A stretch of 64,000 nt of DNA from Cellulomonas sp. URHD0024 (lineage in GTDB: Bacteria > Actinomycetota > Actinomycetes > Actinomycetales > Cellulomonadaceae), in contig NZ_AUEW01000012.1 of the NCBI RefSeq assembly GCF_000426185.1, positions 1-64,000 of the forward strand, written 5' to 3'. Below are positions 42,088-49,052 of this stretch, in pieces (position 1 is the first letter of the stretch; every line of letters starts with the position of its first letter). Below the pieces are notes generated by a model that was not told where the DNA came from, did not search any database, and was given only the letters and a program-made list of their open reading frames with translations. The position numbers and the translations under genes were made by a program.

Positions 42088-42621
42088 TCAGGCAGCGACC
42101 TCGGCCGACTCGTCCAGCTTGAGCCGGAGCGCGTCGACGGTGCGAACAGCCTGAGAAGCGGGGGCAGTGAACAGGTAGGCCGCCTGGTAGAGCTTGGCCT
42201 TGAACACGCCGGCCGCCTTGGCCAGCAGAACCTCACGGGACTCGAGGTCCGCGAGCTTGGTCACGTCCGCAGCGGTCAGGGCGCGTCCGTCGAGGACACC
42301 ACCCTTGATGACCAGTGCGGGGTTCGCCTTGGCGAAGTCACGCAGTCCCTTGGCAGCCTCGACCGGGTCACCGGAGACGAAGGCGATCGCCGACGGGCCC
42401 GCAAGCACGTCGTCGAGGCCCTCGAGGCCGGCATCCTTGGCCGCGATCGCGGTCAGCGTGTTCTTCACCACGGAGTACGTTGCGTTGCCGCTGAGCGCCT
42501 TGCGCAGCCTCTTGAGCTGAGCAACGGTGAGCCCGCGGTACTCGGTCAGCACGGCCGCGTTGGAGTCACGGAACAGGTCCGTGAGCTCTGCGACAGCGGC
42601 TGCCTTGTCCGGCCTCGCCAT
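42088..42621 (-). CDS. rplJ: 50S ribosomal protein L10
   Basis: L10 is the stalk base that binds L7/L12 dimers and, with them, represses its own mRNA in many bacteria. The 177-residue product from ATG 42621 ([21 protein letters not shown]) contains [18 protein letters not shown] and the C-terminal L12-binding helix. A leader of about 210 nt with an L10-leader-like fold precedes it. Confidence 0.98.
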
Positions 42622-42672
42622 GGCAATCCTTCCGATGGTGGTGCCACCGGTCGTCACGCCCCACAAACGAAA

Positions 42673-42877: not shown

Positions 42878-45568
42878 TCACGCAGCTCCGTGGGCGCTGA
42901 ACGTGCACCAGTTGACGAACCCCTCCGGGCTGTCCCGGTCGATGCGCCCACGGGCCGCGTGCAGGGCGCGCGCGAGCGTCAGTCCCTCACGCAGCCCCCG
43001 GTGCAGCTCGAGCATCAGGTCGACGGCCGCGACGTCGGGCACCGCCGCGATGCTGGCGACGACCCCCGCGGTCCCCTGCGCGAGCATCGCCGACACGAAT
43101 CCGAGGACCTCGTCGCCGAGATAGGCGACATCGGCGCCCGAGTGGCAGGACGCGAGAACCAGGCGGTGCGGCGCGACGCCCGCGCCGTGGAGCTCCTGGA
43201 CCGTCACAGGGCCGTCGGCGAGCAGGAGGGACGAGAACATCGGGTTGTCCGTACGGGACGTCCCGTGGCACGCGAGATGGGCGAGGTCAGCGTCCGCGAG
43301 TGCCGCCACAACCGCTGCGGCCGTGCCGGAGCTCGGCTCGAGAACCGTCGCGCCGGGGTGGAGGTCGACGAGCGCCTCGACCTCTTCGCGTGCGCCTTCG
43401 AGTCCCGGACCCGCGACCAGCACGGTCGCACCTTGGCCGGGCCGAGCGAGCGCCGCACGGCGCGTGCGGACCCAGATGGTGGCAGACGGCGCCTGCGTCA
43501 GCGGCCCGTCGTGCAGGCATGACCACGGCACACCGTGCAGCAGCCCGACCGGCACGACGACGAGCTCGGCGTCCGCGTCCACACCGAGCGGGGCGACGAG
43601 TATCGAGCGCAGCCGGGCGATGCGCAGGTCCGCGCTCGCACGGGCCGCGTCGGCCGCCTGCGGGCTGCGTGGGTTGGCCAGCCGCCGCAGGGCGAACAGC
43701 AGGGGGCGCAGCTCGTTCTGGACGTCGGCCGCGGCGCCGAGCTCGACCAGGCGGGCCTGCCTCGGCTCGACGACGACGGCGACGAGCCGCCCTTCCCGGG
43801 TCCCGAGCTCGACGAGCGTGGCCCCGGCGAGCTCGGCACGCAACGCGGTCAACCCCATCGGCCGCAGGTCCTGTGCAGGGTCCACGACGGGCTCGACGGA
43901 ACGAGCCCACTCCGCCGTGCGGATCCTGTGGTCGTCCGCGGTCTCTGTCGTCACGACCGAGCGCCCGGTGCTCGAGGCTGCCTGCTCCTGCGTGTGCGTC
44001 CGCCGCTCGACCACGGCGTCGACCGACCGCGGGAACCGTGCCGTGAGCGCCGCCGCGCGGGTGCGTTCCATCCAGGCGAGCGTCTGGGCCGGAGAACCGG
44101 TCTCGAGCACGATTCCGAGGCCGATCTCGCCGAGCTCCGCCCCGTGACCGGAGGCCAGGGCGCGCAGCTCGATGGTGGGCAGGTTCGAGCGGTGCACCGC
44201 CAGGTCGCGCAGACCCGCGCGGCACTGGACCAGCGCCGACGCGGACCGACGTCGTGCCCTGTCGGCGAGCGCAGCTGCCAACCTGCCGCGCAGCCGGACC
44301 AGGACCTGACCCTCTCGACCGAGCTCGTGAGCGCGGACGAGCGTGGGCACCGCGTCACGGGGACGATCGACGTCGAGCGCGAGCCGGCCGGCGACCAGGT
44401 ATGCCTCGACCGCGCTGTGCAGATGTCCAGCCCGCTCCAGGTTGCGTGCCGCCCGCCGCGCGGCGCGCAGCTCGGTGACCCCGGCCGAACGGAGGCGCAG
44501 GCGGGCCTCGACCCCGACGAGCACGGCCTTGTCCCGCCAGCCCGCGCGGTGTTGTCGCCTGGCCTCGTCGGCCGCGGCGTCGGCAAGGTCACGGGCGGCC
44601 TCGAGGTTCCCCGTGAGCAGGGAGATGTGCGCGAGCCGGAGCTTGGCCTCGGTCGCCATCAGAGCGCTGCCCACCGACACGAGCTCCTCGACGGCGCGCT
44701 CGGCCGCGGAGGTCGCCTCAGGGAGCAGCCGCAGGTCCACCATCGCGTCGGCGTACTCGTAGTAGTACTCGCCGAGGGGAACGCCTGCGTCCGTGTGTGC
44801 CTGGGCGGACCGCTCGAAGTCGACCAGTCCCTGCGCCAGACGCCCGGCCCGGACCGCGATCCACGCCCGGGTCTGCAGCACGGGACCGAGGAAGCCCGGC
44901 GCGTCGGCCGTCATAGCGACGGCGGCATCCGCCTGCTCCAGGGCCTGGTCGTAGGCCCCGCGCTCTGCGAGCGCGAGCGCGAGGTTGTTGTGGACCAGCC
45001 GGCCGACGAACTCCGAGCTGACGCCACCCGCCAGCAGCGCCCGGTACCGGGCCTCCGCCACCGCGGGCATCCCCGCGTTCTGTGCCACCACGGCCCGCGA
45101 CACGAGGATCCGTTCGAGGACGCGGGCGCGCTCCCCTGCCTCGATGTCCGTGGCGCGACTGATCGCTGCGAGCGCAGCATCGAGATCGCGCATGGACCCA
45201 TTGACCCGGCCGAGCTCTTGGAGGACCGTCGCACGCGTGACCAGCGCGCCCGCAGCGACCGAGTGCAGCTCGTGCCTACGAGCGACGTGGACCGCCTCGT
45301 TGAGCAGCCGGCGCGCGCCCGGATCGTCCATCCGTGCTCGAAGTGCCATCGCGAGCACTCGTAGGCTCAGGCCGAGGATCTCCGGGTCTTTTCGGCGACG
45401 GGCGGCCGCCACCGCGGCCGCCGCCTCGGTCTCGAGCGCGACCGGGTCCACATCTGCGGCAGCAAGAAGTGAACGCACGTGTATCAGGAGCGCGACTCGG
45501 CTCTCTGACAGTGCGAAGGGATCGTTGTGTGGAGTCGTCGGACCGGCCTCGACCCCTTGCGGGCACAT
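42878..45568 (-). CDS. TPR-CHAT (caspase-like) protease
   Basis: The 896-residue protein (ATG 45568) has a long N-terminal solenoid of TPR-like helical hairpins (about 20-520, rich in A/L/R with repeats such as GNLEAARDLADAAADEARR). The C-terminal CHAT domain belongs to the caspase/separase clan: catalytic His in HLACHG (about 768) and Cys in LASCHSG (about 808), followed by GTAGVVASIAAVPD and the final helix ALHAARGRID. No signal peptide or membrane span is present. TPR-CHAT proteins act as regulated cytoplasmic proteases, for example the protease of type III-E CRISPR systems. Here it is divergent from a subtilisin-like protease, sigma factor and small protein. The substrate is unknown. Confidence 0.88.
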   Translation of the reverse strand: MCPQGVEAGPTTPHNDPFALSESRVALLIHVRSLLAAADVDPVALETEAAAAVAAARRRKDPEILGLSLRVLAMALRARMDDPGARRLLNEAVHVARRHELHSVAAGALVTRATVLQELGRVNGSMRDLDAALAAISRATDIEAGERARVLERILVSRAVVAQNAGMPAVAEARYRALLAGGVSSEFVGRLVHNNLALALAERGAYDQALEQADAAVAMTADAPGFLGPVLQTRAWIAVRAGRLAQGLVDFERSAQAHTDAGVPLGEYYYEYADAMVDLRLLPEATSAAERAVEELVSVGSALMATEAKLRLAHISLLTGNLEAARDLADAAADEARRQHRAGWRDKAVLVGVEARLRLRSAGVTELRAARRAARNLERAGHLHSAVEAYLVAGRLALDVDRPRDAVPTLVRAHELGREGQVLVRLRGRLAAALADRARRRSASALVQCRAGLRDLAVHRSNLPTIELRALASGHGAELGEIGLGIVLETGSPAQTLAWMERTRAAALTARFPRSVDAVVERRTHTQEQAASSTGRSVVTTETADDHRIRTAEWARSVEPVVDPAQDLRPMGLTALRAELAGATLVELGTREGRLVAVVVEPRQARLVELGAAADVQNELRPLLFALRRLANPRSPQAADAARASADLRIARLRSILVAPLGVDADAELVVVPVGLLHGVPWSCLHDGPLTQAPSATIWVRTRRAALARPGQGATVLVAGPGLEGAREEVEALVDLHPGATVLEPSSGTAAAVVAALADADLAHLACHGTSRTDNPMFSSLLLADGPVTVQELHGAGVAPHRLVLASCHSGADVAYLGDEVLGFVSAMLAQGTAGVVASIAAVPDVAAVDLMLELHRGLREGLTLARALHAARGRIDRDSPEGFVNWCTFSAHGAA

Positions 45569-45575
45569 CTTCCGA

Positions 45576-45581
45576 AGTCTA
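45576..45581 (-). promoter_or_regulatory. -10 element for a possibly leaderless CHAT mRNA
   Basis: The hexamer TAGACT on the minus strand ends exactly seven bases before the ATG of the CHAT gene. This is the spacing seen in leaderless actinobacterial transcripts. No Shine-Dalgarno sequence is evident before that ATG. The start codons of the two divergent protease genes are only 35 bp apart. Confidence 0.5.
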
Positions 45582-45603
45582 GGCGGAACGTGAAGGAGCA
45601 GAC

Positions 45604-47004
45604 GTGAGTGTTTTCTCGGACGACCCCGCGACTCCGGGGCGCCCATTCGGCACGGACTACTCGTCGGGGCAGGAAGCCGAGGACGTCGACCCGCGCGTGC
45701 GGCTGCAGGTTCGACGCCAGGTCGACGAGCTGGTCCAGCGTCACGTCGACCCGGCCGTGCGCCGGCGGATGAACGGCACGATCCGCGGGCGCTGGTCCAC
45801 CAGGCGCGGCGTCGCGCTCGATGTGCTGGAGACGACGAACGGCCAGGAGACGCTGGTGGTCGGCGGCGAGCTGCTCGTCACCGCCCGGTCCTGGGCGGAC
45901 CCGGCCATCCAGGCCTATCTCACCCGTCGCCGGCTGGAACGCGTCGAGGTCGGCTGCCCTGACCTGGAGGACCGCCTCGTCCGGCTGGTCACCACGGGCA
46001 CCGTACGACCCGGATACCTCGAGGACGTGGTCGACGAGCTGCGTCGTCGCGGCGCCGCGGCCTCGCTGACCCATGTCACGCCGCTGGCCGGCGTGATGAA
46101 GCCGCACGGCGTCTCCGTCCCCACGATCGGCACGTTCGGGGACTACGGCACGCACCCCGCCGGCGACGGTCCTGGCGCGAACGTCGCGATCATCGACACC
46201 GGCATCGACGCGCACCTGCGTTCCGACGGCTGGCTCACCGGCATCGAGCGGCGTGCGGACGTCCCGGCGACACATGCAGACGAGATGAACGTCGACCCGC
46301 TCGACAACACCCCCGCCGACGGCTTCCTGGACTTCTCGGCAGGCCACGGGACGTTCGTGGCCGGGGTCGTCGCGCAGGTCGCCCCGACCGCCGACATCGA
46401 GGTCTACCGCTCGTTGAGCACCGCCGGGGCGGGCAGCGAGATCGAGGTCGCCTGCGCCCTCATCCGCTCGGTGCGCGACGGGGCCGACGTCGTCAACCTG
46501 TCGCTCGGCACGCAGACGCAGTACGACCAGCCGTCGCTCGCCGTCGCCGCGGCGCTCGAGGTGGTCCGCGAGATCGAGGTCCAACGGGGCCGCGAGGTGC
46601 TCATCGTGGCCGCGGCCGGCAACTTCGGCGACACGACCCCCGTCTGGCCCGCCGCCTTCCGCCGGGTCGTCTCCGTCGGGTCGCTGACCGCCGACGCCCG
46701 GCCGAGCACCTTCTCGAGCAGAGGGTGGTGGGTCGACTGCTCCACCGTCGGCGAGGGCATCCTGTCGACGTTCGTCGAGGGCGAGCAGTCCCCCGACTTC
46801 ACCGCCGACCCCGAGACCTTCCCCGAGAGCGCCTTCGCCCGGTGGAGCGGCACCTCGTTCGCCGCGCCACAGGTTGCAGGCGCCATCGCGCGCGTCATGC
46901 ACGAGCACGGGCTCGGCCCGCGAGACGCGTACGTCCAGCTGCTCGCCTCGGGCACGCCCCTGCCGGACTTCGGCCAGACCTTCAGCATCCTTCCGGGGGT
47001 GTAA
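45604..47004 (+). CDS. Cytoplasmic subtilisin-like (S8) serine protease
   Basis: The 466-residue protein (GTG 45604, preceded by GAAGGAG) has an N-terminal region of about 190 residues with no signal peptide, then an S8 catalytic domain. Asp 198 is in AIIDTGID, His 248 in AGHGTFVAG, the oxyanion Asn 340 in AAAGNFG and Ser 418 in GTSFAAPQVAG. All four catalytic residues are present, so activity is predicted. Lack of a secretion signal suggests intracellular cleavage. It is the first gene of an operon with a sigma factor and a small protein, and is divergent from the TPR-CHAT gene. The N-terminal part may be a prodomain or binding domain. Confidence 0.9.
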   Translation: MSVFSDDPATPGRPFGTDYSSGQEAEDVDPRVRLQVRRQVDELVQRHVDPAVRRRMNGTIRGRWSTRRGVALDVLETTNGQETLVVGGELLVTARSWADPAIQAYLTRRRLERVEVGCPDLEDRLVRLVTTGTVRPGYLEDVVDELRRRGAAASLTHVTPLAGVMKPHGVSVPTIGTFGDYGTHPAGDGPGANVAIIDTGIDAHLRSDGWLTGIERRADVPATHADEMNVDPLDNTPADGFLDFSAGHGTFVAGVVAQVAPTADIEVYRSLSTAGAGSEIEVACALIRSVRDGADVVNLSLGTQTQYDQPSLAVAAALEVVREIEVQRGREVLIVAAAGNFGDTTPVWPAAFRRVVSVGSLTADARPSTFSSRGWWVDCSTVGEGILSTFVEGEQSPDFTADPETFPESAFARWSGTSFAAPQVAGAIARVMHEHGLGPRDAYVQLLASGTPLPDFGQTFSILPGV

Positions 47005-47072
47005 TGATGCTGGGCACAGTGTGGCGGGCGCGACATGATGGCATCCACGTCGACAGACGAAAGGATGGACGC

Positions 47073-47702
47073 GTGGACAACGACGACCCGTACCGCGCGT
47101 GGGACTCTCCGGCGCTCGTCGCCGGTGCGCTCGACGGCGACCAGGGAGCCTGGACCGAGATCGTGCGTCGGCACGCGCCCGCCGTGATCGCCCGTGTGCG
47201 GCAGTTCCGGCTGACACCGCACCAGGCCGAGGACGTGGCGCAGACCGTCTGGCTCAACCTGCTGGAGAACCTCGACAAGCTGCGCGACCCGCACGCCCTG
47301 CCGGGCTGGATCGCGACGACGGCGCGGCACGAGTGCATCCGCGTCACCAACCTCAACCGCCGCACGGTGCCCGTGGACCCGCAGGGTGGCCGGCTCGACG
47401 GTGCGGCGGAGTCCGACCTGGACGAGCGCATCTTGCTGGTGGAGCGCGAACGGGCTCTGCGAGAGGGGCTCGCGGAGCTCCCGACGCACCAGCGCGAGGT
47501 ACTGCTCATGCTGGCGGTCGACCCCCCGCTGAGCTACGCCGAGATCGCCGAGAAGCTCGGCGTGCCCATCGGCTCGATCGGCCCCACCCGGGGTCGAGGC
47601 CTCGCGCGGCTTCGTGAGACGGCCGCGATCAAGAACTATGTGGCGGCCTGGACGGCCCCCGCAGCAGGAGAGGGAGGCCGCGATGTCCTGGCACTCGGAT
47701 GA
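47073..47702 (+). CDS. Sigma-70 family (ECF-like) RNA polymerase sigma factor
   Basis: The 209-residue product has region 2 (about 15-85: AWTEIVRRHAPAVIARVRQFRL, AEDVAQTVWLNLLENLDKL, LPGWIATTARHECIR). Region 4 (about 130-185) shows LPTHQREVLLMLAVDPPLSYAEIAEKLGVP and GSIGPTRGRGLARLR. It directs transcription of a yet unknown regulon. I chose GTG 47073 with an AAAGGA element; an ATG at 47004 overlapping the protease stop (TAATG) is a possible longer start. The gene lies 68 bp after the S8 protease and overlaps the next gene by 20 bases, so the three are one operon. Confidence 0.88.
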   Translation: MDNDDPYRAWDSPALVAGALDGDQGAWTEIVRRHAPAVIARVRQFRLTPHQAEDVAQTVWLNLLENLDKLRDPHALPGWIATTARHECIRVTNLNRRTVPVDPQGGRLDGAAESDLDERILLVERERALREGLAELPTHQREVLLMLAVDPPLSYAEIAEKLGVPIGSIGPTRGRGLARLRETAAIKNYVAAWTAPAAGEGGRDVLALG

Positions 47703-48195
47703 CCGCACCCGTGCCCAGTCCCCCTGGGCCGACGACGACGCGCTCGGCGCGAACCTCGCGACAGCCGTCGCGGGAGCAGATTTGTACGACCGCGTCCTCG
47801 CCAGCGCCGACCTGGCGTTCCGGGCTCACCGCGGGATGGTGGAGGCGCGCGGGGGCCTCGAGATGGACCTGATGCTGCTGCAGCTCGTCTACGACTCGGG
47901 GTCGCTCGAGGCGTCGGCCGGCGTTCGCGACCGGTCGGGTGGCACCTCGCGCACTCTCGTCTTCGAGGGCGACGCGCTGAGCGTGGAGGTCGAGGTCGAG
48001 ACCACCTCGATCGAGGGCCAGCTCATTCCCCCGCGGCCCGGCCACGTGACGTTGCGGACGCCCTCCGACGACGTGGCCTCCGTCGACACCGACGACGTGG
48101 GGTACTTCCGGTTCGACGTCCGGCCCGACGGTCCCCTGCGGCTCGAGTGCAGCAACGGAGAGGGCACCTGCGTCACGCAGTGGCTCCCGTACTGA
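47683..48195 (+). CDS. Small sigma-associated protein with carboxypeptidase-regulatory-like domain
   Basis: The 170-residue protein (ATG 47683 with GGGAGG) overlaps the 3' end of the sigma-factor gene by 20 bases. Residues 1-65 are helical with LYDRVLASADLAFRAHRGM and LEMDLMLLQLVYDSG. Residues 75-170 are a beta-sandwich-like part (TLVFEGDALSVEVEVETTSIEGQL, VDTDDVGYFRFDV, PDGPLRLEC, TQWLPY), like carboxypeptidase-regulatory or transthyretin-fold domains. It has no membrane segment. Position directly after a sigma factor suggests an anti-sigma or sensor role, and it is a plausible protease substrate. That role is inference. Confidence 0.75.
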   Translation: MSWHSDDRTRAQSPWADDDALGANLATAVAGADLYDRVLASADLAFRAHRGMVEARGGLEMDLMLLQLVYDSGSLEASAGVRDRSGGTSRTLVFEGDALSVEVEVETTSIEGQLIPPRPGHVTLRTPSDDVASVDTDDVGYFRFDVRPDGPLRLECSNGEGTCVTQWLPY

Positions 48196-48255: not shown

Positions 48256-48975
48256 TCAGGCGGCGTCGTCCTCGGCGGTGAGGTTCCGCGTCCGGTTCTG
48301 GTCGACCAGGATGCCGGGGCCGTTCGTGGTCGAGAACGTCGCCTTGGCGATGTAGCGACCCTTCGAGGCGGACGGCTTCAGACGCAGGATCTCGTCGAGC
48401 GCGGCGGCGTAGTTCTCCACCAGCTGCACGTCGCTGAACGACGTCTTGCCGATGATGAAGCAGAGGTTCGCGTGACGGTCCACGCGGAACTCGATCTTGC
48501 CGCCCTTGATGTCGGCGACGGCCTTGGCCACGTCCATCGTCACGGTGCCGGTCTTCGGGTTCGGCATGAGCCCACGCGGGCCCAGGACCTTGCCCAGTCG
48601 ACCGACCTTGCCCATGAGGTCCGGCGTCGCGACGGCGGAGTCGAAGTCGGTGTATCCGGCCGCGACCTTGTCGATCAGCTCGTCGCCACCGACCTCGTCG
48701 GCACCGGCGGCACGGGCCTGCTCGGCACGCTCGCCCGTCGCGAAGACGATGACGCGGGCGGTCTTGCCGGTGCCGTGGGGCAGGTTGACCGTGCCACGGA
48801 CCATCTGGTCCGCCTTGCGCGGGTCCACACCGAGGCGGAAGGCGACCTCGACGGTCGCGTCGTACTTGGTGGTCGACGTCGCCTGCGCGAGCCGGACAGC
48901 CTCGAGCGGGCTGTAGAGGTTGCCCGCCTCGATCTTCTCGGCGGCGTTGCGGTACGCCTTGCTGTGCTTAGCCAT
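48256..48975 (-). CDS. rplA: 50S ribosomal protein L1
   Basis: L1 forms the mobile E-site stalk and represses its own operon in many bacteria. The 239-residue product from ATG 48975 begins [16 protein letters not shown] and contains [21 protein letters not shown], the signature [24 protein letters not shown] and a normal end. It follows rplK by 77 bp. Confidence 0.98.
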
Positions 48976-49052
48976 CTGCTTGGTTCTCCTTGTGAGCAGT
49001 CGTGGTCTGTCGGGCCGCACATGGCCCTGCCACTGGGGGTGTTACGGGTAGA

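Follow-up and report, generated by a model that had tools for sequence, protein, structure and literature searches.

Why is a caspase-like TPR-CHAT protease encoded next to a subtilisin, a sigma factor and a small protein? The question is raised by an islet of four genes between rplA and rplJ in Cellulomonas sp. URHD0024, within the first 64,000 nucleotides of contig NZ_AUEW01000012.1 (this whole stretch is called the window). A preliminary description, made from the sequence alone, read these genes as a proteolysis-driven transcription switch without CRISPR, possibly for stress or phage defence. The data obtained here identify the islet as a real, widespread module and, through its promoter motif, its small partner and its zymogen-like protease output, as a candidate CRISPR-free switch of the sigma/caspase type that can be tested. 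Its gene context was known before, being on record for the extracytoplasmic function (ECF) sigma group ECF54 (PMC8999054). Since an ECF-type motif recurs upstream of the module genes, the sigma factor probably drives its own operon plus a zymogen-like protease.

Gene content and conservation of the locus

The islet sets a minus-strand TPR-CHAT gene against a plus-strand operon of subtilisin, ECF sigma and small-protein genes, with the following features.

42878..45568, minus strand: TPR-CHAT protease, 896 residues from ATG 45568 (PF12770, E value 2.2e-31)
43265-43267 and 43145-43147, minus strand: catalytic His and Cys codons, respectively, of the CHAT protease
45480..45505, plus strand: candidate ECF promoter TGTATCAGG-N14-CTC, upstream of the subtilisin-sigma-small-protein operon, conserved in Cellulomonas and more loosely across the phylum
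45604..47004, plus strand: signal-less S8 subtilisin, 466 residues (PF00082, E value 2.9e-31)
46195-46197, 46345-46347 and 46855-46857, plus strand: codons of the subtilisin triad, Asp198, His248 and Ser418
45856..46083, plus strand: pro-domain-like part of the subtilisin, residues ~85-160
47073..47702, plus strand: ECF sigma factor, 209 residues, GTG start with AAAGGA upstream (PF04542, PF08281, TIGR02937)
47683..48195, plus strand: small partner protein, 170 residues from ATG 47683, overlapping the sigma gene by 20 nucleotides

These are the only four genes between rplJ (42088-42666, minus strand) and rplA (48256-49020, minus strand), the surroundings being a ribosomal-protein cluster, and the flanking gene positions confirm the insertion site given in the preliminary description. 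Its account of the gene content also held, with CHAT (109.8 bits against a cut-off of 24), S8, sigma regions 2 and 4 and the small protein confirmed by Pfam and with the subtilisin triad (D198/H248/S418) and the CHAT dyad (768/808) present in alignment. The subtilisin had been called signal-less, and simple hydropathy of the first 60 residues agrees, a signal-like stretch being found in none of the four proteins. The CHAT start is most likely ATG 45568, the upstream in-frame ATG 45646 being less likely, because all relatives except the closest align from residue 10 or beyond of the longer open reading frame; the dyad is numbered 794/834 from 45646 and 768/808 from 45568. A -10-like TAGACT was seen by eye 7 nucleotides before ATG 45568, and this position suggests a leaderless CHAT mRNA.

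For comparison within the genus, 29 genomes were searched, including 18 other Cellulomonas besides the window genome (genomes are numbered G, fetched loci L). The CHAT protein was matched in 15 of the 29 and the small protein in 11. At the rplA-rplJ site, the full set of four genes was found in 9 of the 18 further Cellulomonas as well as in the window genome, so the islet is more than a chance arrangement. At the same site, 3 of the 18 (G002, G008 and G010) carry a diverged second version: the genes for sigma, the small protein and CHAT share one operon, next to a divergently transcribed gene for a trypsin-like protease that has PFTE repeats. No CHAT match was obtained in 6 of the 18, one of which (G013) is 89% complete in 920 contigs. 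Named relatives of the CHAT protein, from a search that reached close relatives only, were in Cellulomonas sp. URHE0023, Cellulomonas sp. Root485, C. terrae, C. humilata and C. xylanilytica. Locus L018 belongs to G005 and L021 to G018, and these are counted once. In non-carriers G001, G009, G015 and G017 (L191-L194), rplJ is preceded by an OsmC-like and an FAD-oxidase-like gene, identified by Pfam in G009 and by eye in the other three. A clean empty site was not seen, since rplA was not in the fetched stretch of these four genomes or of G004; in G013, rplJ itself was not found.

The four-gene neighbourhood was also found conserved across the phylum, against the possibility, allowed for in the preliminary description, that the genes never co-occur elsewhere. 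With a small-protein profile (A1) built from 18 sequences, matches were obtained in 30 of 296 phylum genomes (E ≤ 0.001) and 94 of 394 class genomes (E ≤ 1e-8), so that roughly one in four of the class genomes sampled carries this partner of sigma. Twenty-five phylum loci were fetched, which cover 26 of the 32 listed matches outside the window (all but the six weakest), together with 40 class loci hand-chosen for genus spread. Sigma was found in 21 of the phylum loci, CHAT in 17, S8 in 16 and a trypsin-like protease in 2, with all parts in 17; the corresponding class counts were 38 for sigma, 33 for CHAT and 28 for S8, with all parts in 26. The small-protein gene lay downstream of sigma and adjoining it (within 350 nucleotides) in 38/40 class and 20/25 phylum loci, and in Nonomuraea gerenzanensis (L190) S8, sigma, small protein and CHAT stand in a row on one strand. 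The four parts are likely genetically linked across actinobacteria.

Where a small-protein locus had no CHAT gene, CHAT was found elsewhere in all 10 genomes tested, one of which (G069) also has a complete locus. Eight unlinked CHAT regions were fetched, and all hold an S8 gene adjoining CHAT, preceded in two by the motif described below; one region (L255) also has a more distant sigma match. The other locus in these eight genomes contained sigma and the small protein in seven and only the small protein in G215, where it lies ~25 kb from the CHAT region on the same contig. The system is thus made up of two pairs, sigma-small protein and CHAT-S8, either linked or apart.

A candidate promoter of the sigma factor

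The sigma protein is predicted to be an ECF (group IV) sigma-70 factor of ~200 residues, with the sigma2 and sigma4 regions above cut-off (PF04542, E value 8.4e-12; PF08281, E value 2e-08; TIGR02937, 61.8 bits against 42.9). Comparison of the CHAT-S8 intergenic regions in Cellulomonas yielded TGTATCAGG-N14-CTC[CT], and at Cellulomonas loci of other architecture the motif was found before operon-leading genes and, at the locus with the divergent protease, on both sides. It was present at the locus in 11 of 13 Cellulomonas carriers, with one-mismatch forms in the other two, and in none of six non-carriers. Searched over the 29 genomes, TGTATCWGG-N13-15-CTC gave 18 matches, 13 of them at the locus, against 11 for the reversed control, and the motif is nearly private to this locus in Cellulomonas.

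A looser form, GTATCA[GC]-N15/16-CTC[CT], was fixed after viewing the phylum loci, and the phylum test is not fully independent: 22 matches were found in 13/25 loci, compared with none for the reversed pattern and a mean of 0.28 (maximum 1) in 40 dinucleotide-shuffled sets. The class loci were fetched after the pattern had been fixed, and 22/40 contained it, against 0/40 for the reversed form. Of the 27 class matches, 17 (in 15/40 loci) have an S8 gene (13 matches) or a sigma gene (4 matches) downstream of them in the same orientation, at distances within the limits set in the analysis. Among the genes directly behind the motif in the phylum and Cellulomonas loci are those for S8, trypsin-like proteases, sigma and the small protein, and loci from 8-10 Mb genomes had degenerate forms detected by weight matrix. 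From its position, shape and co-occurrence, the motif is the probable promoter of the sigma factor itself. In the window, the candidate promoter of the S8 operon (45480-45505) overlaps the 5'-terminal part of CHAT, so that a transcript from it would be antisense to the start of that gene.

A similar pattern gave 45 matches over 22 genomes, compared with 15 for the control. Away from the locus, the motif preceded a second S8 gene (L168), an M14 carboxypeptidase (the second of two open reading frames, L174), an M8-like protease (L158) and orphan small-protein genes (L103 and L073). A DUF6345 protein (L160, 2580-4187) was also seen behind the promoter motif. Other off-locus matches, such as that before a decarboxylase, are probably due to chance, and only those preceding protease and small-protein genes are taken as meaningful here. 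The window genome has one further strict match (G000:C5:64535; L068, 6536), ~100 nucleotides before a histidine-kinase gene (HisKA_3) and, by eye, also close to where a glyoxalase-like gene begins on the opposite strand. It was considered as a sign of a regulon beyond the locus and was taken as chance or lineage-specific, because the closest relative (G005) has its single match at the locus.

The proteases and the small protein

Catalytic residues were compared in alignments of the Cellulomonas and phylum sets, the class set being left out. The CHAT His and Cys were invariant in 36/36 proteins, and the Asp/His/Ser triad in 31/31 S8 proteins. The TPR part of the CHAT protein was seen weakly, with TPR_1, TPR_2 and TPR_8 all under the Pfam cut-offs. 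Its only sequence relatives of solved structure were four "CHAT domain protein" entries (E values 0.015-0.017), which we take to be type III-E Csx29; the NCBIfam model of Csx29 (NF041237) scored 18.1 bits, under its cut-off of 300.

The predicted subtilisin model aligns with unautoprocessed pro-subtilisins from residue 86, with a mean model confidence (pLDDT) of only 50, and the whole-protein model is too poor for detail. As modelled, the subtilisin looks zymogen-like, and it looks like an output of sigma rather than a second regulator. Perfect tandem peptides of at least four copies were found in 8 of 17 phylum S8 reading frames, and perfect tandem peptides of at least three copies and at least 15 residues in 3 of the 28 class loci having S8, located between the pro-domain-like part and the catalytic Asp. 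The units were NPAYQG (8 copies), NPGYQG (6), ANPAYQ (7), HPMYDG (4), PFTSGG (7), PFWGGH (4), PGGTPY (11), GYGDGV (6-7), NPHGRT (4) and GHPITG (7). In eight phylum arrays, the identical peptide copies were each encoded by 2 to 7 different DNA units. Junction repeats were seen at L104, L117, L119, L120, L121, L123, L125, L204, L206 and L241; the units mostly contain Pro and vary by lineage. None were found in 13 type-1 Cellulomonas S8 proteins, that of the window included, or in four from 8-10 Mb genomes (L111, L112, L113 and L115), and in the class S8 of L234 the repeat is N-terminal. The L120 cluster has two CHAT and two S8 genes with differing junction repeats (HPMYDG and PFTSGG) and constitutes a natural specificity test. 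In C. terrae (L020, 3582-4935), a second, diverged S8 gene lies between the small-protein gene and rplA.

The trypsin-like proteases of the module also bear repeats (PFTE, EPHYQ or PVTRDP) in all five cases seen. Those of L034 (11376-13196), L071 (2450-4381) and L036 (4648-6417) have long C-terminal PFTE repeats with ALGANP-like spacers. Trypsin_2 scored above its cut-off of 27.6 in L071 (33.2) and below it in L034 (25.0), Trypsin scored 20.2 in the phylum relative L123, slightly under the cut-off of 20.6, and weak NAL1 matches were obtained in L034, L071 and L123.

The small protein had been described as helical with a beta-sandwich, and its predicted structure bears this out: N-terminal helices (residues 16-71) are followed by a C-terminal immunoglobulin-like (Ig-like) beta-sandwich (~80-170). 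Pfam gave only a sub-threshold CarboxypepD_reg match (E value 0.034) and no peptidase domain. Deriving a function from the fold was considered and rejected, the Ig-like sandwich being common and implying none.

Proposed mechanism and alternatives

The reading preferred here, to which we give an even chance, is that the locus works as an ECF54-type protease switch, cytosolic and autoregulated. The sigma factor would transcribe its own operon, including the gene for the signal-less pro-subtilisin, in a positive feedback. The small protein, the most constant neighbour of sigma, would keep it inactive as an anti-sigma or scaffold. The TPR-CHAT protease would be the sensor, cutting the small protein or the sigma-small protein complex upon a signal, as modelled on the cutting of Csx30 by Csx29 in type III-E, here without CRISPR. 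The output would be a cytoplasmic protease burst by which the cell is remodelled or killed. Judged from the sequences, the wiring from sigma to protease is likely; the CHAT substrate and trigger as proposed are guesses. The idea of a proteolysis-linked transcription switch without CRISPR, put forward in the preliminary description, fits because the probable sigma promoter precedes protease, sigma and small-protein genes in many loci; the ECF54 precedent and the subtilisin as a likely output of sigma are additions to it. The suggested role in phage defence was not supported. Against PADLOC-DB, S8 matched a generic subtilase (6e-16) and, more weakly, IetS models (best 1.4e-05), and CHAT, sigma and the small protein matched nothing at E values up to 0.1; the surroundings are ribosomal-protein genes. 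A mobile-element origin was rejected, the only matches being partial, diverged CHAT matches in seven plasmid records and one phage record. Should this wiring prove correct, a single promoter sequence would serve as a direct reporter for the system, and since the sigma output of the CHAT protease could be measured, trigger and substrate could be sought by genetics. The caspase-sigma logic of type III-E would then exist without CRISPR and with a dedicated protease output.

Several observations weigh against this switch. CHAT was also found in 12 of 20 genomes without a small-protein match, the genes being common anyway, and for this reason its co-presence in 10/10 genomes is weak evidence by itself; reliance was therefore placed on the linkage of CHAT and S8. 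Two of those 12, when examined, matched the module CHAT profile at 1e-28 and 6e-20, compared with ~1e-87 to 1e-117 for seven of the 10. In the phylum loci L103, L105, L114 and L124, the small protein occurs with no sigma, CHAT or protease match within the stretch fetched; the L124 contig has a length of 6.8 kb, and the L114 genome has CHAT and S8 ~25 kb away on the same contig. Regarding the promoter, 18/40 class loci have no strict motif, and 10 of the 27 class matches are not before a module gene within the set limits, some of these being cases in which profile envelopes overlap or the next gene lies further off, so that motif placement (15/40) is weaker than presence (22/40). The small protein had no match among the anti-sigma models of Pfam and NCBIfam, its helical part was modelled with low confidence, and its gene can itself follow the motif (L103). 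Because the small protein occurs without sigma and behind the motif, it may be an effector or inhibitor and not an anti-sigma. One form of this, quite unlikely in our estimate, is an intracellular protease inhibitor or immunity protein, likened to the Ig-like intracellular proteinase inhibitor of Bacillus subtilis, which CHAT would destroy to free S8.

The repeats bear on a less likely possibility of another kind, an initiator-executioner cascade in which CHAT would cut the pro-subtilisin or the trypsin-like protease at the pro/mature junction and so activate it; sigma and the small protein would only set the protease dose, and the small protein would not be a CHAT substrate. The alignment of the S8 model with unautoprocessed pro-subtilisins, the tandem peptides at the pro/catalytic junction (8/17 phylum frames and 3/28 class loci), the encoding of identical copies by 2 to 7 DNA units in eight phylum arrays, the repeats in 5/5 trypsin-like proteases and the continued pairing of CHAT and S8 when sigma and the small protein lie elsewhere all favour it. 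It is opposed by the S8 proteins with no repeats (that of the window, 0/13 in type-1 Cellulomonas, L111, L112, L113 and L115) and by the N-terminal repeat of L234; moreover, subtilisin pro-domains usually process themselves. A somewhat unlikely combination would wire such a cascade to sigma, with TPR-CHAT as the initiator, cytosolic subtilisin- or trypsin-like executioners, lineage-specific repeats at the pro/mature junction or C-terminus as a CHAT docking or cleavage code, and sigma and its partner amplifying the executioner supply; the module, widespread in actinobacteria, would then be related to the type III-E sigma/caspase switch but work without CRISPR. The published ECF54 proposal, made from gene context (PMC8999054, section 3.3 and Table 2), has the neighbouring proteases degrade sigma to keep its level low, without an anti-sigma. 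The ECF54 passages there discuss no small partner beside sigma except a "carboxypeptidase", and S8 stands behind the probable promoter of sigma itself and would therefore be a feedback product rather than a resting-state repressor, which leaves this proposal decidedly unlikely for the module. An ordinary stress or protein-turnover regulon, with the CHAT gene incidental and no switch logic, would suit the core-genome surroundings of the Cellulomonas locus, but the repeated retention of two proteases, sigma and partner together over the phylum and the near privacy of the motif in Cellulomonas make it very unlikely.

RseA, RsiW and similar anti-sigmas are membrane proteins, whereas none of the four proteins here has a signal-like N-terminus. 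Sigma release by a protease is a model borrowed from anti-sigma proteolysis (RseA/DegS and RsiW, named in PMC10028731). In the type III-E CASP/Craspase system, Csx29 acts by cleaving Csx30, which inhibits CASP-sigma; motifs of this sigma occur in its own locus (PMC10028731). The module shares the CHAT protease, with a weakly seen TPR part, the ECF sigma and the probable sigma motifs in its own locus but differs in its subtilisin output and in that genes for Cas7-11, Csx30 and Csx31 are not found between rplA and rplJ, the one locus searched. Related caspase and ECF systems are described in PMC8195603 and PMC7159879. Among them, the EACC2-caspase systems (Kaur et al. 2021, PMC8195603), which include an ECF sigma and a TPR protein, have a different constant component, and the passages of that paper on these systems describe no S8 or small Ig-like partner; in the four proteins here, Pfam found no domains beyond CHAT, S8, sigma and the sub-threshold TPR and CarboxypepD_reg.

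Among the matches listed in a search of open-access titles and abstracts, no experimental paper on the system was found, and PMC8999054 was the one relevant paper on the ECF54 context. The group goes back to Huang 2015 and Casas-Pastor 2021, as cited there, and has conserved carboxypeptidase, subtilase and CHAT neighbours, with sigma control by proteolysis proposed. The present sigma likewise has CHAT and subtilase genes nearby and is, by gene context, a candidate member of ECF54. Beyond what section 3.3 and Table 2 of PMC8999054 give, the motif, the small-protein family, the split loci, the trypsin-like, M14 and M8 alternatives and the junction repeats come from this analysis. The "carboxypeptidase" neighbour of ECF54 may correspond to the CarboxypepD_reg-like small protein described here, and a true M14 carboxypeptidase was found behind the motif in one other genome.

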